NCBI GenBank assembly: GCA_937885075.1
Contig: CAKZYZ010000061.1
Coordinates: 1 to 39,671, forward strand
Source: an uncultured bacterium
GTDB lineage: Bacteria; Auribacterota; Erginobacteria; Erginobacterales; Erginobacteraceae
Length of the DNA stretch: 39,671 bases
Direction of reading: 5' to 3'
Shown: piece after piece, positions 2,896 through 39,671 of the stretch
How the letters are laid out: each line of letters starts with the position of its first letter
Numbering within the stretch: position 1 is the first letter of the stretch
Made by a program: the position numbers and the translations under genes
Notes under the pieces: model-generated
Database searches by the model: none
Seen by the model: only the letters and a program-made list of their open reading frames with translations
What the model was told of the DNA's origin: nothing

Positions 2896-3064
2896 CGATC
2901 TTCAACGATCTTTAACGTTTTCTCTTTTTAACGTTTTTATTCTTTAACGTTTTTTCTTTTCAACGTCCCTTATCTTCAACGTTTTTATTCTTCAACGTCT
3001 TTATCCTTCAACGTCCCTTATCTTCAACGTTTTTTCTTTTCAACGTCCCTTATCTTTAACGTCC
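2896..3064 (-). repeat. CGTTGAA-type tandem array overlapping the mreD 3' end
   Basis: About 11 degenerate units on the minus strand, of the form ACGTTGAAGATAAGGG or ACGTTGAAAAGAAAAA. The last codons of mreD, including its TGA stop, are repeat units (GACGTTAAAGATAAGG, then GACGTTGA). The array reads away from the gene. Confidence 0.8.
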
Positions 3065-6189: not shown

Positions 6190-7494
6190 CTAATCCCTGC
6201 TCATCCTTCCTTCTTCTCCCTCCAGAAGAAACTTCCGAGCATCCCCCAATAACCGCTCTTCGGTCAAAACCTCCACATAAATATCATTCTGATGGTAATC
6301 GATCCTGACAACCTGTCCATCCTTATAGAGCCGGGATATCAGATCATGGCGACTCTGCGGAATCAATAATCTATAATTTCGGCGGGGACCATCCAGCTGC
6401 TCGTCGATGGCCTGAAGAAGATCATCCAATCCGGTCCGCTTCAGAGCTGAGATCGCGACCCCTCCATCGAGGCGGGATCTGGCTTCAGCCAGGAGAAATT
6501 CATCTTGAACCAGATCCATCTTATTCAGCGCTACTATCATCGGCTTCTCATCGGCTTTCAGTTCTTTCAATACCTCTTCCACCGCCTTTTTCTGTTTCCA
6601 AACCATCCGGTGAGAGAGATCCAGAACTTCAATAAGAAGATCCGCTTCCCGGACCTCTTCCAGTGTCGCCCGAAAGGCATTAATAAGATTATGGGGAAGA
6701 TTCCGGATAAACCCGACCGTATCACTGAAGAGAACAGTCCGGCCGGACGGGAGCGTGGCCTTTCGGGTAATCGGGTCGAGCGTGGCAAAGAGTTTATCTT
6801 CCGCCGGGACCAAGGCATCGGTCAGGGAGTTTAACAGGGTGGATTTGCCGGAATTGGTGTACCCGATTATTGAGACAACCGGAATCCTGGTCCGATTACG
6901 GCGCTTTCTCTGTGCCTCCCGCTGCCGCTGGACCACATCTACCTCTTTTTCTAACTGGTGGATCCTGGTCCGGATAATCCTCCGATCCATCTCCACCTGC
7001 TTTTCTCCCGCGTCCCTGGTTCCTTTCATCCCCCCTTTCTGACGGGAGAGATGCGTCCAGGCCCCGGCTACCCGGGGGAGCTGAAAATGAAGCTGGGCCA
7101 GCTCAATCTGGAGACAGCCCTCCCTGGTCCGGGCCCGTTGCGCGAATATCTTCAGAATCAGCTCGGTCCGATCCATCACCATCACGCCGGTCGCGTCCTG
7201 GAGATTGCGGAGCTGGGCCGGGGAGAGGTCCCCGTTAAAGAGGATAATCGCCACATCATCATCCCGACAGAGCTGACCGATCTCTTCCGCCTTCCCGGTC
7301 CCGATATAGGTGGACGGATGAGGCTTCAACCGGCGTGAGACATTGCTCCCCACCACCGCCATTCCGGCGGTCCGGGCCAGCTGTGAAAGTTCGGCCAGCA
7401 GATCATCGATATCCCATCGATTATCCCGCAAAAGCTCCAGCCCCACCAGAAGCGCCCTCTCTCTCTTCCCCGTTTCTTCTCCAACCTCAATCAT
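6190..7494 (-). CDS. hflX: HflX, ribosome-associated GTPase
   Basis: HflX is a translational GTPase that splits or rescues stalled ribosomes. I start it at the ATG at 7494 (434 residues, MIEVGEETGKRERAL). That ATG is preceded by GAAGGA and overlaps the miaA stop by 8 bp; a longer frame from 7569 would run 80 bp into miaA. The order is an N-terminal HflX domain with HPSTYIGTGKAEEI, a glycine-rich linker (SRQKGGMKGTRDAGEKQ), then the G domain. The G domain shows G1 GYTNSGKST at about 211-219, G3 DTVGF and G4 NKMD. The last codons (RMSRD and stop) are part of a GGATGAGCAGGGATTAG tandem repeat that continues beyond the gene. Translational coupling to miaA is likely. Confidence 0.95.
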   Translation of the reverse strand: MIEVGEETGKRERALLVGLELLRDNRWDIDDLLAELSQLARTAGMAVVGSNVSRRLKPHPSTYIGTGKAEEIGQLCRDDDVAIILFNGDLSPAQLRNLQDATGVMVMDRTELILKIFAQRARTREGCLQIELAQLHFQLPRVAGAWTHLSRQKGGMKGTRDAGEKQVEMDRRIIRTRIHQLEKEVDVVQRQREAQRKRRNRTRIPVVSIIGYTNSGKSTLLNSLTDALVPAEDKLFATLDPITRKATLPSGRTVLFSDTVGFIRNLPHNLINAFRATLEEVREADLLIEVLDLSHRMVWKQKKAVEEVLKELKADEKPMIVALNKMDLVQDEFLLAEARSRLDGGVAISALKRTGLDDLLQAIDEQLDGPRRNYRLLIPQSRHDLISRLYKDGQVVRIDYHQNDIYVEVLTEERLLGDARKFLLEGEEGRMSRD

Positions 7495-8545
7495 TATTTT
7501 TTCCTTCGGGAAAAATATTGGTAATTTTTTCCACAATATCCTCTGCTTGGGCAATCTGGTCAAGATCAACCCATCGTATCCGCTCGTCTCTTCGCCACCA
7601 GGTGAGCTGTCGTTTCGCGAAATGGCGGGTCTTGGTGGATAAGCGCTTTATAGCTTCATCCCGTCCATACTCCCCGTCCAGATATCCCCGGACTTCCATG
7701 TACCCCAACGCCTGGCAAGCAACCCGGTTCTCCAGAAGTCCCTTCTTCAGCAGTTCCCGCGTCTCATCCACCAGACCAAGATCAAACATCTCCAGAACCC
7801 TCCGGTTAATCCGGTTGTACAGGTCTTTCCGGTCTCTGCGAAGACCGATCAGGAGGTAGGGAGTGGGGAGTGGGGAGGAGATAGTTGACCCCGATAAATC
7901 GGGGGGGGCCAGTTGACAGTTGACAGTTGACGGAGGGCTAGGCTCGGCGTCGTTGAACGTTGAACGTTGAACGTTGAACGTTGAACGTTCAGTTTTTTTA
8001 TCCCATTGCTTCTGCCACCGTGAAATAGGAACTCCGGTCAACTTCAGCACTTCCAGTGCCCGGATCACCCTCTTAACATTATTGGGATGAATTCGTTCGG
8101 AGCTGGAAGGATCTTCTCGCGCAAGCAGGTTATGCAGATAACCCGGTCCTTTCGCGGCTTCTTCTTTCCAGAGATAATCCCGGTATCCCTGATCCGCCGG
8201 GGGAGATTCAAAGAGACCATCTACCAGAGCCTTAATATAGAGTCCGGATCCTCCTACCACCATTGGTATCGACCCCCTCCTCCGGATATCTTCTATCGCG
8301 GAGAGAGCCAGTGAACGAAAGCGGGACGCGCTGTATTTCTCATTGATTTCAAGAATATCAATCAGATGATGAGGAATCCGGGAGAGTTCAGCCGGACCGG
8401 GTTTGGCGGTGCCGATATCCATCCCCCGATAAACCTGAAAAGCATCCGCCGATACAATCTCCCCCCCCATCCGCTCCGCCAGCAGCAGAGAAACCTCCGT
8501 CTTCCCCACCGCCGTAGCCCCCAGAATAATAAGTGTCTTATCCAA
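7487..8545 (-). CDS. miaA: MiaA, tRNA dimethylallyltransferase with a repeat-derived insertion
   Basis: MiaA transfers dimethylallyl to A37 of tRNAs that read UNN codons. The 352-residue frame starts with TTG (8545). It has P-loop GATAVGKT at 9-16, SADAFQVYRGMDIGTAKP at 32-49, GGSGLYIKALVDG at about 98-110, and the C-terminal CQALGYMEV and TRHFAKRQLTWWR motifs, all ordinary for MiaA. Between WQKQWDKK (about 177-184) and YLLIGLRRDR (from 230) lie about 45 extra residues: STFNVQRSTFN followed by a Pro/Ser-rich stretch. They are encoded by the same repeats found in intergenic DNA (five CGTTGAA units, three AGTTGAC units, a CCCCGATAAATCGGGG palindrome). The insertion keeps the frame, so the enzyme may still work. 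It overlaps hflX by 8 bp. Confidence 0.94.
   Translation of the reverse strand: MDKTLIILGATAVGKTEVSLLLAERMGGEIVSADAFQVYRGMDIGTAKPGPAELSRIPHHLIDILEINEKYSASRFRSLALSAIEDIRRRGSIPMVVGGSGLYIKALVDGLFESPPADQGYRDYLWKEEAAKGPGYLHNLLAREDPSSSERIHPNNVKRVIRALEVLKLTGVPISRWQKQWDKKTERSTFNVQRSTFNDAEPSPPSTVNCQLAPPDLSGSTISSPLPTPYLLIGLRRDRKDLYNRINRRVLEMFDLGLVDETRELLKKGLLENRVACQALGYMEVRGYLDGEYGRDEAIKRLSTKTRHFAKRQLTWWRRDERIRWVDLDQIAQAEDIVEKITNIFPEGKNND
7862..7993 (-). repeat. Intergenic-type repeats inserted in frame inside miaA
   Basis: About 132 bp made of GTGGGGAGTGGGGAG, a CCCCGATAAATCGGGG palindrome (7889-7904), three AGTTGAC units and five TTGAACG units. The same modules occur in non-coding gaps, for example near 8553, 6080 and 22205. 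There is no stop in the miaA frame. Confidence 0.85.
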
Positions 8546-9000
8546 AATATTATGTCGTTGAACGTTGAGAGTTGAATGTTGAATAGCCTGCCCGCCATAG
8601 CTTTAGCGACGGCTGGTTCAGTCTTTCTCTGTTTCCCCAACCTCTCCCCCTTTTTTGTCCACGGATTACACAGATTACTCTGATTATTTCGCCTCAGCTT
8701 GGCGGCTTTACAGTCCACTAATTACACTAATTTACACTAATTGTTTCCCCCTGCCTCACCCCCATAACTAATATCCAATGGCCAACTCCCAATTTCCAAT
8801 TTCCAAATTCAACCTCGACGTTGGTCATTCGCATTTGGAGATTGGAAATTGGGAGTTGGATATTGGACATTCCGCTTCTCTCGCCTCCTCCCTGCTTTTC
8901 CCTATGTTTTAGTCCTTTCGAGAAGTACCACCAAAAGAGAGCATAACGTGGCGAAGCGACAACTTTCAACTTTAGGCACTTAAGGCACTTTCAACTTCTT
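8546..9000. repeat. Repeat-filled gap between mutL and miaA
   Basis: No gene in 455 bp. From miaA outward it has a short CGTTGAACG array with a CCTGCCCGCCATAGCTTTAG module (8553-8618), the sense-oriented upstream repeat (8634-8763), and a long inverted repeat of CCAATTTCCAATT type (8768-8872). An AAGTGCCTTAAGTGCC repeat leaves the mutL stop (8959-9000). Confidence 0.8.
8634..8763 (-). repeat. Sense-oriented upstream repeat, copy 1 (before miaA)
   Basis: On the minus strand it reads ATTAGTGTAATTAGTGGAC, then AATCTGTGTAATCCGTGGAC, then AAAAAAGGGGGAGAGG. The G-rich tail points toward miaA, about 90 bp from its start. Confidence 0.8.
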
Positions 9001-10743
9001 CTACCTTCTTCCAAACCGTTTCTCCAACTCTCCCCAGGAATCAACAATCATCGTCGGACGCCCATGCGGACAATGATCCGGATCTTCACAGGCAAATAGC
9101 TCTTCCACCAATCGAGCCAATTCAACCGGAGCCAGGCTTGCCCTGGCCTTAACCGCCGCCAGACAGGACATCCGGATTATGATCTCCTCCCGGGGATCAT
9201 CCGGCTTCTTCCCCTCATCGGCCAGACCATCTATAACTTTCAGCACCAGCTCCTCCCGGTTCCAGCCGGATAGAATCGCCGGGAGCGCGGTAATGATAAA
9301 TGAATCGTCTCCAAACGGTTCAATCTCGATACCGATTTCTCTGAAAATTGGAATCTTTTCTAAGAGCAGGGCCGCGTCACGAGGATCCAGATCCAGATTG
9401 ATCGGCGCCAGCAGCGTCTGCAATTCCATCTTCTCATTGAGCAGATCCCGCCGAAAGCGTTCATAGATAATCCGTTCATGAGCGGCGTGCTGGTCGATTA
9501 TAAGCAGACCGTCCGAAGATTCAACCAGCAGATACCTCTTAGCCGCCTGCCCTAAAATTCGGTATGGCGAGGGAAATAAAGGCTCCGATTCGGTTTTTTC
9601 CGCCACCGGCGAAGAGGAGTAATCCTGAGAAAAATGTGGAAAAACCGGTGCGCTCTCCGCCGCCGGGGGAGTGAGATATGGATCCATCCCCCCGGACTCC
9701 CCTACTCCGCCAACCGGACCGGAGGCACGGATTGGATAAGCGATCCGAGCCGATGAAGCGATCTTTAACGCCTCCCGAACCGCCCGGACAACCAACCCCC
9801 GGATCAGGGGGGGGTTAGAAAACTTCACCTCCCGTTTGGCTGGATGAATATTCACATCCACCGCCCGGCCGGATATTTCAACGAAAATTACCCCGGTCGC
9901 GTAGCGCCGTCCCGCCAGCAGCGGTCCGCATCCTTCCATCACCGCGCCGAAGAGCATCCGGTCCTGAACCGGACGGCGGTTTATAAAGAGAGAGACCCCT
10001 TTCCGGACAGTCAGGGATAGATCAGGAGGCATAATAAACCCGCTCACGGAGACCCCATCCCCGGATGCCTCAAGCTGAACCAGAGAACCTGCTGTCTCCC
10101 CCCCCCATAGATCACCCAATCGTTCCTTGAGGGAAGAGCAAGCCGGGAGATCCAGAATTACCTCATTATCTCTCTCATAATAAAAAGCGACCTCCGGATT
10201 TGCCAGCCCATGATCGATAACCCGGGCAGTGATATGGGCCATCTCGGTCCGGTCGGTCTTTAAGAACTTCCGGCGCGCCGGGGTATTGAAGAAGAGCCTC
10301 TTCACCTCCACCACTGTTCCAACCGGCGCGCCAACCTCAGTAAGATCCTTGATCGTACCACCAAAGATATGGAGCCGGGCCGCGGCTGGAGAATCAGCCG
10401 TCCGGGAAGTCATCAGGAGGTCCGAGACCCCGGCGATACTGGGGAGAGCTTCTCCCCGGAATCCCAGAGTTGAGATCTCTTCCAGATCCGGAAAATCTCT
10501 CAGTTTACTGGTAGAATGCCTCTCAAACGCCAGCAAGAGATCGTCCCGCTCCATCCCACATCCATCATCCTCCACCCGGATCTCTCTCCGCCCGCTCCCC
10601 CTCACCATCACCCGGATGGATTTCGCCCCCGAGTCCAAAGAGTTCTCCACCAACTCCTTAACCACCGAAGCCGGCCGCTCCACCACCTCACCAGCGGCAA
10701 TCTTGTTAACCACCGCTTCCGGCAGCAATCTTATCCTACTCAT
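9001..10743 (-). CDS. mutL: MutL, mismatch-repair ATPase/endonuclease
   Basis: A 580-residue MutL that couples MutS mismatch recognition to strand nicking or excision. The N-terminal GHKL ATPase motifs are intact: ELVENSLDSGA (30-40), DDGCGM (59-64), TLGFRGEAL (92-100) and GTVVEVKRLFFNTPAR. A Pro/Ser-rich linker spans about 335-390. The C-terminal domain has the metal-binding endonuclease motif DQHAAHERIIYE (417-428) plus SCLAAVKA and CPHGRP. This is therefore the nicking type of MutL found in bacteria without MutH, unlike the E. coli protein. It is the first gene of mutL-miaA-hflX. The stop is followed within 6 bases by an AAGTTGAAAGTGCC repeat. No strong Shine-Dalgarno sequence was seen. 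Confidence 0.97.
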   Translation of the reverse strand: MSRIRLLPEAVVNKIAAGEVVERPASVVKELVENSLDSGAKSIRVMVRGSGRREIRVEDDGCGMERDDLLLAFERHSTSKLRDFPDLEEISTLGFRGEALPSIAGVSDLLMTSRTADSPAAARLHIFGGTIKDLTEVGAPVGTVVEVKRLFFNTPARRKFLKTDRTEMAHITARVIDHGLANPEVAFYYERDNEVILDLPACSSLKERLGDLWGGETAGSLVQLEASGDGVSVSGFIMPPDLSLTVRKGVSLFINRRPVQDRMLFGAVMEGCGPLLAGRRYATGVIFVEISGRAVDVNIHPAKREVKFSNPPLIRGLVVRAVREALKIASSARIAYPIRASGPVGGVGESGGMDPYLTPPAAESAPVFPHFSQDYSSSPVAEKTESEPLFPSPYRILGQAAKRYLLVESSDGLLIIDQHAAHERIIYERFRRDLLNEKMELQTLLAPINLDLDPRDAALLLEKIPIFREIGIEIEPFGDDSFIITALPAILSGWNREELVLKVIDGLADEGKKPDDPREEIIIRMSCLAAVKARASLAPVELARLVEELFACEDPDHCPHGRPTMIVDSWGELEKRFGRR

Positions 10744-10763
10744 AATTTTTACTTCGCAAAATT
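10744..10763 (-). other. AT-rich palindrome abutting the mutL start
   Basis: Arms AATTTT and AAAATT with an 8-base loop (TACTTCGC) directly precede the mutL ATG. It is one of several boundary palindromes. Confidence 0.4.
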
Positions 10764-10765
10764 TA

Positions 10766-10874
10766 AAACATTCGGCAAACCCATTCTCTCGTAGCAGCTG
10801 CCTTCAGGCTGCCACACTATGGCGACCTAAAGGTCTTCGCTACGAGCACGTGGCACCGGGTTTGCCAAATGTTT
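10766..10874 (+). repeat. Palindromic element, copy 3, with different end repeats
   Basis: The core CTCTCGTAGCAGCTGCC to GCTACGAGCACG matches the family. The terminal inverted repeats are instead AAACATTCGGCAAACCC and GGGTTTGCCAAATGTTT. Ends and core therefore behave as separable modules. Confidence 0.8.
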
Positions 10875-10939
10875 ACATAAATATAATCCTGAAATACTTT
10901 TTATCTCCAAACATATCCATACACTCAGAACAAGAATCA

Positions 10940-11515
10940 CTATTGTTTTAAAAGTTTCTCCTTTAAAACAATAGCCCAGATATGCCGGCAGGCAAATCCA
11001 AACTTTCTCCCCCGGTAGGTATAATCAGGACAAGAGCATGACGCCCCCTGAAGAGGCCCCTCCTCAACCAGAGTAACCGTATTCCCCCCGACCTCGTACT
11101 GGTTCTCAGCAATCTTCTTAACTTTATCCTCGTCTATCCTCCCTTTATCATACCGGTTCCCTTCCCGGGTCATATCCCGTTTAATCTCAATATACCCATC
11201 CGGTAACTTAAAGATCCTCCGTCCAATCTCATCGGCTTCTTTCCGGCACTGCTCAATCTTGGCGTTAATGGAATCCGCCTGCCAATCCGGATATTGCCGG
11301 ACGATCTCCGCGTAAACTTCACCAGCCTTAATAAAATCATCATACGCCGCCCGCTCCTCCTTCTGATAGAGAGCCTTACGAGCCTGGCGAACCAGAAAAT
11401 AAGCCTCCTTATTCAACTCCTGCGGCGTCCTCCCTCCTTCCACGGACAGAACAAGAACTGGAAAGACAAAACTAACACCCATAACAAGAGCTAAAAATAA
11501 TTCTATCTTCTTCAT
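10940..11515 (-). CDS. Exported protein with C-terminal SWIM-type zinc finger
   Basis: 191 residues. A signal peptide-like N-terminus (MKKIELFLALVMGVSFVFPV) is followed by a charged helical region of about 30-110 that could be TPR-like (LNKEAYFLVRQARKAL, AYDDFIKAGEVYAEIV). The C-terminus carries C-S-C-P-D, then C-R-H (about 159-180), matching the CxC(x)nCxH SWIM zinc-binding pattern. SWIM domains are normally found in cytoplasmic DNA- or protein-binding proteins, so pairing with a signal peptide is odd. The hydrophobic N-terminus may instead be a membrane anchor. The last codons form one arm of a perfect 12-bp palindrome (10941-10973) that ends on the stop codon. The function is not recognised. 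Confidence 0.75.
   Translation of the reverse strand: MKKIELFLALVMGVSFVFPVLVLSVEGGRTPQELNKEAYFLVRQARKALYQKEERAAYDDFIKAGEVYAEIVRQYPDWQADSINAKIEQCRKEADEIGRRIFKLPDGYIEIKRDMTREGNRYDKGRIDEDKVKKIAENQYEVGGNTVTLVEEGPLQGASCSCPDYTYRGRKFGFACRHIWAIVLKEKLLKQ
10941..10973 (-). terminator. Palindrome formed by the end of the SWIM gene
   Basis: Perfect 12-bp arms TATTGTTTTAAA and TTTAAAACAATA enclose the codons for KEK. The hairpin ends at the TAG stop. It may act as a terminator or mRNA-end structure, but no U-run follows. Confidence 0.45.
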
Positions 11516-20176: not shown

Positions 20177-21955
20177 ATGAAGATCTGGCTGATATTAGGG
20201 GTTCTCGCTATCTTACTGCTGGCGGCGTTTCTCTCCGTCCCTTTTTATTATCAGGGAGGTTCGGGCGGCGGGGAGGGGGGAGTGATGGTCCGCCGGGCGG
20301 CGCTGGGGGCCAAGATCCGGGGACTGGATCCGCAGGATATGGGCGACACCACCAGTTCCTCGGTAGGGGCCAAGATCTTCGAGACTCTCTATACCTATGC
20401 CTATCTCGAGCGCCCCTATAAGGTGATCCCCATGCTGGCCGATGGCATGCCCGAGATCAGTGAGGGGGGGAAGAAGCAGACGATCAGAATAAAGCGGGGG
20501 ATATATTTTGCCGACGACCCGGCGTTCCCGGAGGGGAAGGGGAGGGAACTGACGGCGGATGACTTTATCTACGCCTGGAAACGGATGGCTGACCTGAACA
20601 ACCGATCCACTAACTACTCCTCAATTTTTCAGGGATATGTGGAGGGGCTGGACGGGTTCCGGGACTACACCGCTACCACCAGAGATGTTGACTATTCCCG
20701 GCCGGTTGAGGGTCTCAATGCACCCGACCCATATACCCTGGAAATAACGCTGACCAAACCCCACAACTTCCTTCTCTACTGGCTGGCTCATCTCCCCACC
20801 GCGCCGGTTGCCCGGGAGGTGGCGGAGAGATACGGGAAAGATATGGTCAATCACCCGGTTGGGACCGGGCCTTTCATACTGGAGGGCGATTATCGCTCCA
20901 ACCGCTTCTCGATGGTCCGGAATAAAAACTACCGGGAGGTCAAATATCCCGACCGGGCATCCCCGGAACTTGAGGCAATGGGATTGCTGAAAGACGCCGG
21001 GCAGCGGCTGCCGTTTATCGACCGGATCGAGTGGTCGATTATCGAAGAATCCCAGCCGCACTGGCTGGCCTTCATGGCGGGAGAGTTCGACTCCGCCGGT
21101 ATCCCCAAGGATAATTTCGACCAGGTAATTACCAGCAAGAAAGGCTTGACCGCGGAGATGAAGGCGAAAGGGATCAGCCTGATCAAGGTGGAGGATCCGT
21201 CTATCTTCTATTATGGATTCAATATGAACGACCCGGTAGTGGGGAAGAACAAGGAACTCCGGCAGGCGATGAGTATGGCCTTTGATCGGGAGACATACAT
21301 AGACACCTTTCTCAACGGGCGGGGCAGTATTCCGGTGGGACCGATCCCGCCGATGATTCCGGGCTATCGGCCGGATAAGGATAACCCCTATACCCGCTAT
21401 GACCTGGACGCGGCCCGGAAATTATTGGCTGGGGCGGTGAAGATTAACGGGGGGCCGATCCCCACCCTGAAGCTCGCCCTGCCGGGGAATGACACCACGT
21501 CCCGGCAGATGGGGGAGTTCTTCCGGATTCAGATGCAGAGGTTGGGACTGGAGGTTGAGGTCGATTATATGACCTGGCCTAAATTTCAGGACGCGACCAA
21601 GACCCGCAGCCACCAGTTATTCGCCCTGGGATGGGTGGCGGACTATCCCGACGCCCAGAACTTTCTGCTCCTTTTCTATGGTCCCAACCGGGCGCCGGGT
21701 CCCAACTCCTGCAATTACAGCAACCCCGAGTTCGACGCGCTCTATGAGAAGGCGGTGGCTCTCCCCGATCTGGATGATCGGCTGCCGCTATATCACCGGA
21801 TGGAGGATATAGTAATCGAGGACTGCCCCTGGCTGCTCAGCACCTATCGGGTAGTTTACGCGCTCTACTACGATTGGCTGGAAAACTATTATCCCAATGA
21901 TTTCATCTATGGGACGATGCGGTTTCAAAAAGTGGAAGAAGATAAAAGACGTTGA
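20177..21955 (+). CDS. oppA: Oligopeptide ABC transporter substrate-binding protein
   Basis: 592 residues of the family 5 extracellular binding proteins (OppA/DppA type). There is one N-terminal hydrophobic segment (about 3-25) with no lipobox cysteine, so the protein may be membrane-anchored or cleaved. Typical stretches are LGAKIRGLDPQDMGDTTSS, VIPMLADGMPEISEGG, LTADDFIYAWKRM, HPVGTGPFILE and RQAMSMAFDRETYI. It would deliver peptides to the two permeases and two ATPases that follow. The last codons, KRR and the TGA stop, are the first unit of a CGTTGAA repeat array that fills the gap to oppB. The symbol is by family; the substrate could also be dipeptides or other small molecules. Confidence 0.9.
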   Translation: MKIWLILGVLAILLLAAFLSVPFYYQGGSGGGEGGVMVRRAALGAKIRGLDPQDMGDTTSSSVGAKIFETLYTYAYLERPYKVIPMLADGMPEISEGGKKQTIRIKRGIYFADDPAFPEGKGRELTADDFIYAWKRMADLNNRSTNYSSIFQGYVEGLDGFRDYTATTRDVDYSRPVEGLNAPDPYTLEITLTKPHNFLLYWLAHLPTAPVAREVAERYGKDMVNHPVGTGPFILEGDYRSNRFSMVRNKNYREVKYPDRASPELEAMGLLKDAGQRLPFIDRIEWSIIEESQPHWLAFMAGEFDSAGIPKDNFDQVITSKKGLTAEMKAKGISLIKVEDPSIFYYGFNMNDPVVGKNKELRQAMSMAFDRETYIDTFLNGRGSIPVGPIPPMIPGYRPDKDNPYTRYDLDAARKLLAGAVKINGGPIPTLKLALPGNDTTSRQMGEFFRIQMQRLGLEVEVDYMTWPKFQDATKTRSHQLFALGWVADYPDAQNFLLLFYGPNRAPGPNSCNYSNPEFDALYEKAVALPDLDDRLPLYHRMEDIVIEDCPWLLSTYRVVYALYYDWLENYYPNDFIYGTMRFQKVEEDKRR

Positions 21956-22064
21956 AAACAAAGAACGTTGAAGATAAAGGACGTTGAATTTAAAAGACGT
22001 TGAAGAATAAGGACGTTGAAAACAAAGAACGTTGAAGAATAAGGACGTTGAAGGTCGTTGAAGT
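21948..22064 (+). repeat. CGTTGAA-type array supplying the oppA stop
   Basis: About nine units of GACGTTGAAGAATAAG-like sequence at 13-17 bp spacing. The first unit contains the oppA TGA. The array reads outward from the gene. Confidence 0.85.
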
Positions 22065-22399: not shown

Positions 22400-23398
22400 G
22401 TGGATTTAATTGTGAAGGCATACTTTATCAGAAAAATAATCTACCTGATTCCTATTGTGATCGGGATATCTCTGATTACCTTCCTCCTCTTCCGGGTGGT
22501 GGGAGGGGATCCGATTGATCGGGTGGCGGGGAAGTATGCCACTGCCGCTCAGAAGGAAGAACTGCGGCACCAGCTTGGCTTCGATAAACCGCTCTGGCCT
22601 CCGGTCGGAAAGCTCTTCGCGGGGGACCTGAAGGGTTTTGCCGACAATCAGCTTTTTACCCATTTTGTCGACACGTTCACCTTAAACTTCGGCCGGTCCG
22701 AGCAGTATAAACGGAAGATCAGCGATATGATCAAATCCGGCGCGATCCCCTCTCTCTCCCTGACTGTCCCGGCATTTATCATCGGGATATGGATCCAGAT
22801 CACGATCGCGATGCTATGCGCCTTCAAGCAGGACGGGAGGTTCGACCGGATAGTGGTGATTCTCTCCGTGATCGGGATGAGTATCCCCTATCTGGCCCTG
22901 ATCATCTTCGGCCAGGTTTTTTTGGCCGGTAAGCTGAGATGGTTCCCGATCTATGGATATCCGGGGAAGTTTGGGTTATCGGTGATCCAGTTTGTGGCCC
23001 TCCCGGTCCTGCTGGGTGTGGCGGCGGGGCTGGGCGCCGGGGTGAGGTTCTATCGGACTGTGATCCTGGATGAGACCCGGGCGGACTATATCCGGACGGC
23101 GCGGGCTAAAGGGGTGGGGGAGGGGCGGGTGATGTTCAAGCATCTCCTGAAGAACGCCATGATACCGATTATCACCCAGGTGGTGGTGGTAATCCCGTTT
23201 CTCTTTCTCGGATCGCTTCTTCTGGAACGGTTTTTTTCGATCCCCGGACTCGGCTACATGCTGATCGACGCGGTCAACAGCTCCGACTGGCCGGTGATCA
23301 ACGCCCTGACATTCGTGGGGGCGATCATATATCTGGGGGCGCTGCTGTTAACTGATCTCTGTTACGCGCTGGTCGATCCGCGGGTTTCTTTGAAGTAG
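22400..23398 (+). CDS. oppB: Oligopeptide ABC transporter permease (OppB/DppB type)
   Basis: 332 residues starting at GTG 22400; a second GTG at 22412 is equally possible. The N-terminal signature is FIRKIIYLIPIVIGISLITF, and five to six membrane segments follow. The EAA loop that contacts the ATPase is DETRADYIRTARAKGVGEGR near residues 226-245. This is the larger-loop partner of the permease pair. The stop codon is followed at once by a CGTTGAA-type array (23399-23482). The ribosome-binding site is probably the G-rich end of the upstream repeat or the weak GAAAG beyond it. Confidence 0.92.
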   Translation: MDLIVKAYFIRKIIYLIPIVIGISLITFLLFRVVGGDPIDRVAGKYATAAQKEELRHQLGFDKPLWPPVGKLFAGDLKGFADNQLFTHFVDTFTLNFGRSEQYKRKISDMIKSGAIPSLSLTVPAFIIGIWIQITIAMLCAFKQDGRFDRIVVILSVIGMSIPYLALIIFGQVFLAGKLRWFPIYGYPGKFGLSVIQFVALPVLLGVAAGLGAGVRFYRTVILDETRADYIRTARAKGVGEGRVMFKHLLKNAMIPIITQVVVVIPFLFLGSLLLERFFSIPGLGYMLIDAVNSSDWPVINALTFVGAIIYLGALLLTDLCYALVDPRVSLK

Positions 23399-23860
23399 TT
23401 GAAAAAAGAAAGGACGTTAAAAAATAAGGACGTTGAAGAAAAAAGACGTTGAAGAATAAGGACGTTGAAAAGAAAGAACGCAGCTTCGCAACTAATTAAA
23501 CCGCGAATCTTCACGAATTAAAAGAAATAATTAACTACGAATTTCGCGAATTACACGAATTATACTGATTAGGAGAAAGACAAACCGCTTAATCCACGGT
23601 TTATTGTCCCGGTAATATCAATTAAGACAACCGGGATCCCGATGGATATCGGGGGAATTCCGAAGCAGGGACTTAGCTTTATGGTTTAAAAGAAGGGGGC
23701 GAGGGAGGGGGAAACAATTAGTGTAAATTAGTGTAATTAGTGGACAGCAAAGCCGCTAATCCGAGGTGAAATATCAGAGTAATCTGTGTAATCCGTGGAC
23801 AAAAAAGGGGGAGAGGTAGGGGGATAACTTTATGAATTTTGCGTTTTTTTGTGGCTGAAA
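23399..23860. repeat. Repeat-filled gap between oppB and oppC
   Basis: No gene in about 460 bp. It contains a CGTTGAA array (23399-23482), an ACGAATTTCGCGAATTACAC tract (about 23533-23570), and an inverted copy of the GATATCCATCGGGATCCCGG element (23600-23670). The sense-oriented upstream repeat follows (23715-23825). Confidence 0.8.
23715..23825 (+). repeat. Sense-oriented upstream repeat, copy 3 (before oppC)
   Basis: It reads ATTAGTGTAATTAGTGGAC, then AATCTGTGTAATCCGTGGAC, then AAAAAAGGGGGAGAGG, ending 35 bp before the chosen oppC start. Confidence 0.85.
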
Positions 23861-38343: not shown

Positions 38344-39528
38344 ATGAGTCTCTTAAGAAAAGTTTTTGGTACCAAGTTTGATCGGGACCGCAAGAAACTC
38401 CAGCCGATAGTTGATGAGATCAATCGGCTGGAAGAAGAGTACCGGCAGCTCTCCGATCAAGGTGTTCGGAAGAAGAGCGATGAGTTCCGGTCTCGGTTCA
38501 GAGATCGGACCGAATCGTTTCGCCTTCGGCTGGAAGAGATAAAAAGCTCTCTCTCCGAAGATATCTCCCCCGAAGAAGAGGATGATCTGCGGACTGAAGA
38601 GAGACAGCTGATCGGGAAACTGAGAGAGGAGGAGAAGGTGGTCCTGGATGACCTCCTCCCTGAGGCCTTCGCGCTGGTAAAGAATGTCTGCCGGAGATTG
38701 ATGGGAAGGAGCATGGATGTCTGCGGCCAGGAAATTCTCTGGGAGATGATTCCTTTCGATGTGCAGTTGATCGGGGCGATAGTCCTTCACCAGGGAAAGA
38801 TTGCCGAGATGGCGACCGGGGAGGGGAAGACCCTGGTGGCGACCATGCCGCTCTATCTTAACTCGCTCTCCGGCAAGAGTGTCCATCTGATCACGGTCAA
38901 TGATTATCTGGCCCGCCGGGACCGGGAATGGATGGGGCCGGTCTATGACCTTCTGGGTGTCACGGTGGGCTGTCTCCAGGGGGGGATGTCTCCCCCCGAG
39001 AAACGCGAGGCCTACGGGGCCGATATCACTTACGGCACCAATAATGAATTCGGTTTTGATTATCTTCGCGACAATATGGCGGTCCACGCGGAGGGACAGG
39101 TCCAGCGGAAATATCATTACTATGATAAAGAAAAGGATGTCCTCCAGCGGGGGCATTATTACGCCATTATAGATGAGGTGGACAGTATCCTGATCGATGA
39201 AGCCCGGACCCCCCTGATCATCTCCGGACCGGTTACCGTCTCAACCCACAAGTTTAAAGAAGTCATGCCCCGGATGAAGGAACTGGCCCGGAAACAGACC
39301 ATGCTCTGCAACCGGTTATTCAAGGAAGGGAAGGAGCTTCTGGAACGGGGGGGAGAGGGAGACGAGGAAGAAGCTTATCGGAAGTTCTACCAGGTAAGAA
39401 AAGGCGCCCCCCTCCATAAACAGCTGATGAGTCTGATTGAAAAGCCGGAGATCAGGAAATTACTCCAGAAGAATGAGACCGAACTGGACTCAAAGTCCAG
39501 GCAATCTCCCCGGGTTGAGGAGGGGAGG
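38344..39528 (+). CDS. secA: SecA preprotein translocase ATPase (3' end missing)
   Basis: 395 genomic codons remain. SecA drives secreted proteins through SecYEG with ATP. The motifs are [32 protein letters not shown] (two joined motifs including Walker A GEGKT), [34 protein letters not shown], and Walker B with [20 protein letters not shown]. Relative to E. coli there is an extra acidic, probably coiled segment at about residues 50-100 and a longer preprotein cross-linking region. Such insertions occur in several deep-branching phyla. Coding sequence ends exactly where an Illumina adapter begins at 39529; the apparent C-terminus [14 protein letters not shown] is translated adapter. Confidence 0.96.
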
Positions 39529-39671
39529 AGATCGGAAGAGCGTCGTGTAGGGAAAGAGTGTAGATCTCGGTGGTCGCCGTATCAATAAAAAAAAAAAACA
39601 ACAAATATCACTGTAAATAAGAGCATGTAATCACACCATCCCACTCCACTCACACACAAATTGCATCCACC
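39529..39671. other. Illumina adapter read-through and junk tail
   Basis: AGATCGGAAGAGCGTCGTG begins at 39529 and the match continues to about 39584. It is followed by a poly-A run and about 70 bp of low-complexity sequence. None of this is genome. Confidence 0.93.

Follow-up and report, generated by a model that had tools for sequence, protein, structure and literature searches.

Repeat-derived in-frame insertion in a bacterial MiaA and recurrent occupation of the same loop by unrelated repeats

One loop of MiaA, the linker between the helix that follows RALEVLKLTG and the strand YLLIGL, holds unrelated repeats in the genome analysed here (G000), in G002 and G007, and in four Phycisphaerae. 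In the window, i.e., the whole analysed stretch of 39,671 nucleotides, the linker is encoded by a mosaic of heptamer arrays and a short inverted repeat. The best reading of these data is that MiaA repeatedly accepts selfish or slippage-prone DNA because its permissive, disordered loop meets repeats that happen to be open when read one way. The window belongs to a 4.4-Mb assembly of 434 contigs (87% complete) from a bacterium near Candidatus Erginobacter, phylum Candidatus Auribacterota. The miaA gene lies between hflX (6190-7494) and mutL (9001-10743), both Pfam-confirmed, and the following features were located in and beside it.

7487..8545, minus strand: miaA, tRNA dimethylallyltransferase, 352 aa, TTG start
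7859..7993, minus strand: repeat-encoded MiaA linker, residues T185-P229 (45 residues), from translation, relatives and predicted structure
7859..7877, plus strand: GGGAGTG heptamer array, 2.7 perfect copies (TRF)
7872..7933, plus strand: composite module GGGGAG..AGTTGAC-palindrome-AGTTGAC.., in the same order and 89% identical at contig C390, positions 9660-9722, outside predicted genes
7882-7888: single AGTTGAC abutting CCCCGATAAATCGGGG, read directly
7889..7904, no strand assigned: inverted repeat CCCCGATAAATCGGGG, 16 bp with 7-bp arms, 9 exact copies in G000
7910..7931, plus strand: AGTTGAC heptamer array, 3.1 perfect copies (TRF), minus-strand peptide STVNCQL, stop-free
7912..7997, plus strand: second composite, 86 bp, of an AGTTGAC-like array, a spacer and a CGTTGAA array, 80% identical at contig C305, positions 22516-22601
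7951..7989, plus strand: CGTTGAA heptamer array, 5.6 perfect copies (TRF), minus-strand peptide FNVQRST, stop-free
8554..8583, plus strand: degenerate CGTTGAA-type array in the repeat mosaic that occupies the mutL-miaA intergenic region, immediately upstream of miaA

The preliminary description of this DNA placed about 45 repeat-encoded residues between WQKQWDKK and YLLIGLRRDR of MiaA, which agrees with the 45 residues from T185 to P229. The units lie in the coding frame, as it also stated; the arrays and the palindrome were identified by direct reading and, for the arrays, by TRF, and the frame is open throughout between the two flanks. Within 7855-8000, a lag of 7 was the only one elevated (0.56 vs 0.19-0.34). 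For the CGTTGAA array, about 40 other partial copies were found in the 4.4-Mb assembly. The palindrome is preceded by AGTTGA(C) in three of its nine copies (miaA and contigs C196 and C390) and then followed by GGGG.CC.GTTGA-like sequence, and its remaining copies lie in another context ("..TAGACT.."). Two larger combinations recur in order. The 63-bp composite at C390 comprises a GTGGGGAG-like stretch, AGTTGAC, the palindrome and AGTTGAC again, and the copy of the 86-bp composite at C305 codes for what is predicted to be the N-terminal tail of a FecCD-type permease (permease identity by reading). The order of the pieces at these two loci indicates, therefore, that they moved as composites. The whole 132-bp mosaic has no second copy in G000.

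The heptamers are a genome-wide class of repeat. Statistics were obtained from a 0.6-Mb sample drawn by contig number, together with 0.3 Mb picked for repeat content, and genes were called with a home-made gene finder (613 genes), which misses some starts. The 0.6-Mb sample contained 44 perfect period-7 arrays, no other period in the range 2-13 exceeding 8, with periods 14 and 21 likewise raised; the period-7 arrays amount to 73 per Mb, compared with 0 in 5 runs of a first-order Markov control. At a looser cutoff, 89 of 102 arrays were intergenic, which, together with the scattered CGTTGAA copies and palindromes, bears out the earlier statement that the modules otherwise fill intergenic DNA. 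The coding-strand unit of the intragenic arrays (10) is stop-free in all except one 17-nt array, several of these units being stop-free on both strands, so that not every array is informative on orientation. Excess over other periods and over the control, mostly intergenic location and stop-free orientation in genes are the properties of LSSR/STRR-type heptanucleotide repeats. A similar heptamer excess, with other favoured units, was found in the sister lineages G001 and G002 (ACCAGTC is the commonest in G002). As a 7-base repeat runs through all three frames, only a unit without stops on the coding strand can be tolerated in a gene, which is the rule given by MacGregor for TAACTGA arrays (PMC4679880). 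It applies to both main arrays of miaA, where TTCAACG (FNVQRST) and TCAACTG (STVNCQL) are open on the coding strand and their complements contain TGA in each cycle, including every repeat of CGTTGAA on the opposite strand. The repeat stretch in miaA is not a product of chance.

Comparison with relatives shows what was gained. Measured from RALEVLKLTG to LRRDR, the MiaA linker has a median of 23 residues (n=95), 25 in G001/L107, 28 in G002 and G004, and 63 in G000, so that the net excess ranges from 35 residues (against G002) to 38 residues (against G001/L107). The gain is 35-38 rather than 45 residues because the relatives already have a linker of 25-28 residues. The match of G002 MiaA stops at query residue 186 and restarts at residue 222, and the G002 DNA has no gap there. 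The proposal that the stretch had been inserted is supported by these data, as the closest relatives are 35-38 residues shorter at the linker and the insert consists of the genome's own intergenic repeats; in the alignment, related MiaA proteins carry different repeats or none, and no conserved unrelated insertion. One relative is of particular relevance. The linker of G002, the sister of G000 in the MiaA tree (support 85), carries a CAGTCAC heptamer array, TCCAGTCACCAGTCACCAGTCACCAGTCAC, built of the commonest heptamer of that genome, and CAGTCAC arrays are absent from G000, G001, G003, G004 and G007. It is possible that a single ancestral heptamer array diverged in place in G000 and G002, in which case part of the G000 insert would be due to slippage and not to insertion. 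In its full form this idea assumes that nothing was inserted at all, and that a heptamer-like seed in the linker, perhaps present in the common ancestor of G000 and G002, grew and diversified by slippage only. The array at the same place in the sister lineage speaks for it, as does the dominance of heptamers in G000, since such units are slippage-prone according to what PMC4679880 reports from Mrazek et al. It overlaps in part with the explanation by a permissive loop. However, the non-tandem parts, i.e., the inverted repeat and spacers, follow an order that is repeated over stretches of 63 and 86 bp at distant loci, and the G000 arrays match families specific to G000; growth by slippage only is thus rather unlikely, even if it deserves consideration. 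The same observations bear on the suggestion that the several families had entered together. The recurrence of the 63-bp and 86-bp composites in order supports it up to a point, but a heptamer array of another kind is already present at the site in the sister lineage, and stepwise growth is for that reason as likely as a single event. Entry of the entire mosaic in one step is a possibility only, given that the mosaic has no second copy.

The enzyme itself looks intact, judging by its sequence and predicted structure. The TIGR00174 profile matches G000 MiaA with 285 bits (cutoff 149), which places it in the MiaA family. The statement that all other MiaA motifs are preserved was confirmed: the P-loop, DAFQVYRGMDIGTAKP, HHLID, GGSGLYI, HPNNVKRVIRALEV, QALGYME and KRQLTWWR are present, and columns invariant in 36 MiaA sequences are retained (G9, T11, G14, K15, D34, Q37, R40, G98, G99, R162, and Q313). 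The AlphaFold model computed with a 36-sequence alignment has a pLDDT of 82.9 and is confident outside residues 37-46, the insert at 190-223 (pLDDT < 50) and the C-terminal end. In this model the insert, predicted to be disordered, is located between helix 174-190 and strand 230-237, and Foldseek aligns the model with E. coli MiaA (2zm5/3foz) at a TM of 0.87 by target length, the insert notwithstanding. The protein is presumably made and active. If miaA were instead a pseudogene, inactivated and in frame by chance, its 352 open codons with every invariant motif would be hard to account for; moreover, no second miaA was found in the 87% complete bin (a single match was obtained), and the frame has been kept independently in several lineages, which makes inactivation very improbable.

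The same loop is occupied by quite different DNA in other bacteria. In G007, a member of the same phylum, a 59-residue insert in MiaA is a complete 168-bp element with sharp boundaries, terminated by the inverted repeats (T)TAGCCCG...CGGGCTA(A) and present in about 22 further copies with 79-96% identity. Its length is a whole number of codons. The element occurs in frame in two further coding sequences, where it splits an AprA-like methyltransferase domain (L268) and interrupts a 694-residue protein (L270) that has a weak, below-cutoff glycosyltransferase match. Across L260-L282 of G007, it has TA at both ends, and its copies are full or partial, most of them open in one frame. The sister Phycisphaerae L080 and L087 carry a 107-bp REPIN-like element at the linker in opposite orientations, clearly alignable only once one of the two is reverse-complemented; its exact end motifs occur 10 times in the L080 genome and 9 times in the L087 genome. 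The opposite orientation (L080, 10562-10753; L087, 10616-10792) would mean that the element flips in place or was inserted twice. L080 MiaA has, in addition, another rare insertion, located at residue 67 (GILPVRKAEEHGHDAHA). In L098 (Phycisphaerae HBSAPP03), a complete REP-RAYT-REP unit is located in frame inside MiaA (10502-11275), in the order GTAG-REP, tyrosine transposase and inverted REP, with MiaA motifs intact on either side. The unit has 27-bp perfect inverted ends, and 18 near-exact REPs were counted in that genome. Its transposase matches Pfam Y1_Tnp above the cutoff and NCBIfam REP_Tyr_transpos with E=2e-21 and 76.3 bits, just under the cutoff of 80, and the HVH motif is present (by reading). 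The L098 insert combines an inverted pair of GTAG-tagged REPs with a REP-associated tyrosine transposase between them, as is typical of a REP/RAYT unit. The fourth Phycisphaerae case, L082, has an imperfect GTGCCTC-type period-7 tract at the linker. Its heptamers were considered as a dispersed family and this was rejected, as only one other imperfect site exists in its genome; the case is for that reason counted as a local period-7 tract. The f9-family MiaA proteins (L017, L023, L027, and L028) were likewise not counted as repeat cases, their 33-36-residue linkers being natural and carrying conserved motifs.

In a MiaA tree built without the linker columns, the repeat label requires at least 5 gains or losses, at least 3 of which are forced by starred branches. 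A survey of 288 genomes with a short-linker MiaA query gave a match in 281, and a match split at the linker in G000 and G007 only; surveyed genomes with two or more MiaA matches mostly have paralogues or splits elsewhere. Long inserts are therefore rare overall and concentrated in repeat-rich lineages of the PVC group, the Phycisphaerae cases having come from a separate contig search and not from the survey. These other genomes also bear on the quality of the assembly. A misassembly or binning error driven by repeats could have put intergenic repeats into miaA, since the genome is a metagenome bin of 434 contigs with Illumina adapter sequence at contig ends, and arrays are prone to collapse or joining. 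Yet the length of the insert (about 135 bp) is close to that of ordinary short reads, the flanks on either side remain in frame, and the independent assemblies of G002, G007, L080, L087 and L098 have the same kind of insert in the same loop. An artefact is hardly credible. The array could also be regarded as a contingency switch that turns the tRNA i6A37 modification off and on, because one 7-bp unit gained or lost shifts the frame. Three perfect in-frame heptamer arrays in a single-copy gene are what such phase variation would use, and frame +2 of the insert runs into stops. But the inserts of G007, L080, L087 and L098 are not slippable arrays, and some array-bearing genes of G000 have the array in a tail, where switching would be pointless. 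We consider phase variation very unlikely.

In other genes of the bin, in-frame repeats like those of miaA were found in a polysaccharide export protein, in C25 peptidases and in N-terminal tails. The polysaccharide export protein (L198, 8221-10077) has repeats between TPRs, namely STVNS.. heptamers and palindrome-derived PPDLSGST; the gene finder truncated this protein and its insert was located by hand only. Two proteins with C25-peptidase domains (L148 and L124) also contain in-frame repeats. In these gingipain-like proteins (L148, 28-4731; L124, 4084-12639) several intergenic repeat types are in frame, including VIARSEATKQS and VIASEAKQSS. N-terminal tails with repeats were seen in RsmB (KTEHSTFNVQRSTF), RibBA and the FecCD-type permease (identity by reading); for such tails, the true start codon may lie further downstream. 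The notion that every gene has been invaded was rejected: with adapter-derived contig ends set aside, MiaA and the two C25 peptidases were the only proteins in which the scan detected internal repeats in frame.

The explanation that we regard as probable is that of a permissive acceptor loop, with the repeats as neutral passengers. It assumes that the MiaA linker is a disordered loop that tolerates changes in length, and that repeat DNA arriving there would be tolerated when the frame is kept and stops are avoided. In G000, the incoming DNA would be a mosaic of the genome's own heptamers and a short inverted repeat. It probably arrived in the form of intergenic composites by template switching or illegitimate recombination, after which the arrays may have been lengthened by replication slippage. 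A smaller heptamer array at the linker, common to G002 or paralleled there, was likely the starting point of the mosaic. Selection that screens random repeat activity in a disordered surface loop tolerant of length change would suffice to explain why many kinds of DNA occupy one loop with the frame kept. No targeting mechanism is needed, because heptamers, the TIR element and REPs would use different machinery. A far stronger proposal can be formulated, according to which selfish repeats of bacteria generally dock at the MiaA linker. Chemically unrelated elements would have used it independently no fewer than five times, in two phyla, and the inserts would modulate MiaA, e.g., through a heptamer frame switch or through coupling to a RAYT domain; we consider this proposal improbable. 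Neutral passengers are the most likely status of the repeats in MiaA.

Several known systems resemble these insertions. TAACTGA arrays of Beggiatoaceae and cyanobacteria are mostly intergenic 7-bp repeats with intragenic cases; one strand has stops in every frame, the other encodes an open 7-residue peptide, and copies within ORFs are in the readable orientation (MacGregor, 2015, PMC4679880). The G000 heptamers are similar to them and to STRR/LSSR heptamers in unit length, mainly intergenic location and stop-free copies within ORFs. In contrast to the TAACTGA copies, which occur within ORFs mostly at protein ends or in hypothetical proteins (PMC4679880), the G000 mosaic unites several families with a palindrome and lies within a core tRNA-modification enzyme, at a site that other repeats have also entered. 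Tandem heptamers between and within genes are known, too, from the GGGACCG heptanucleotide elements of Geobacter metallireducens (PMC2700814), where a uniform four-unit element is found, unlike the mixed families of G000. Rickettsia palindromic elements (RPE) occur as in-frame insertions in a large number of genes (see the review PMC10969869), and the preliminary description likened the miaA insert to them. The comparison holds for the effect, as short non-autonomous repeats lie in frame within enzymes predicted to be intact and are tolerated, and in-frame insertions with intact flanking domains affect several unrelated genes in G000 (MiaA, the polysaccharide export protein, and the C25 peptidases) as well as in G007, whose 168-bp TIR element occupies MiaA, the AprA-like methyltransferase and the glycosyltransferase-like protein. 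It does not hold for membership. The G000 insert is a heptamer mosaic of partial composites with a 16-bp palindrome, not one defined palindromic element of ~100-150 bp with many full-length copies; the G007 element has a structure of the latter kind. Intragenic GTAG/CGTC REPs are described in frame in DNA- and RNA-acting enzymes, PVC-group species included, with one case in which two Xanthomonas species carry different REPs at the same site of recB (Di Nocera, 2013, PMC3733652). GTAG-tagged REPs also flank the RAYT of L098; however, the passages of that paper considered here describe no whole RAYT unit inside an enzyme frame, and its main text does not mention miaA.

In-frame intragenic repeats are thus already known, and the recurrent MiaA acceptor loop appears to be the new part: our literature search, most subscription papers being outside its reach, found neither a description of repeats in MiaA nor a case in which unrelated repeat classes occupy one enzyme loop in different phyla. 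Earlier descriptions mostly treat such repeats as scattered accidents, whereas here one loop of a conserved enzyme has been struck repeatedly by heptamer arrays, a TIR element, a REPIN-like element either way round and a whole REP-RAYT-REP unit. The neutrality of such insertions, and what decides where they survive, becomes a testable question. For annotators and structural biologists, it follows that a low-complexity insertion in a PVC-group enzyme can represent mobile DNA and that a match to a transposase domain inside MiaA need not mean an assembly error.

Two further observations concern the contigs. The end of the window (39528-39671) is Illumina TruSeq adapter (AGATCGGAAGAGCGTCGTGTAGGGAAAGAGTGTAGATCTCGGTGGTCGCCGTATCA) followed by low-complexity bases, and the last ORF (38344-39588) ends in adapter-derived peptide. 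Adapter-derived peptides also occur at the contig ends L150, L159, L165, L171, L175 and L179, and terminal ORFs of the bin should therefore be distrusted. Longer tandem arrays of 16- and 32-bp units (GAAGAAAAAGGACGTT type) are located at 2911-3064, 21938-22053 and 23398-23477 of the window, in or beside intergenic gaps; they apparently constitute a second repeat system, based on an ACGTT core common to the CGTTGAA heptamers.
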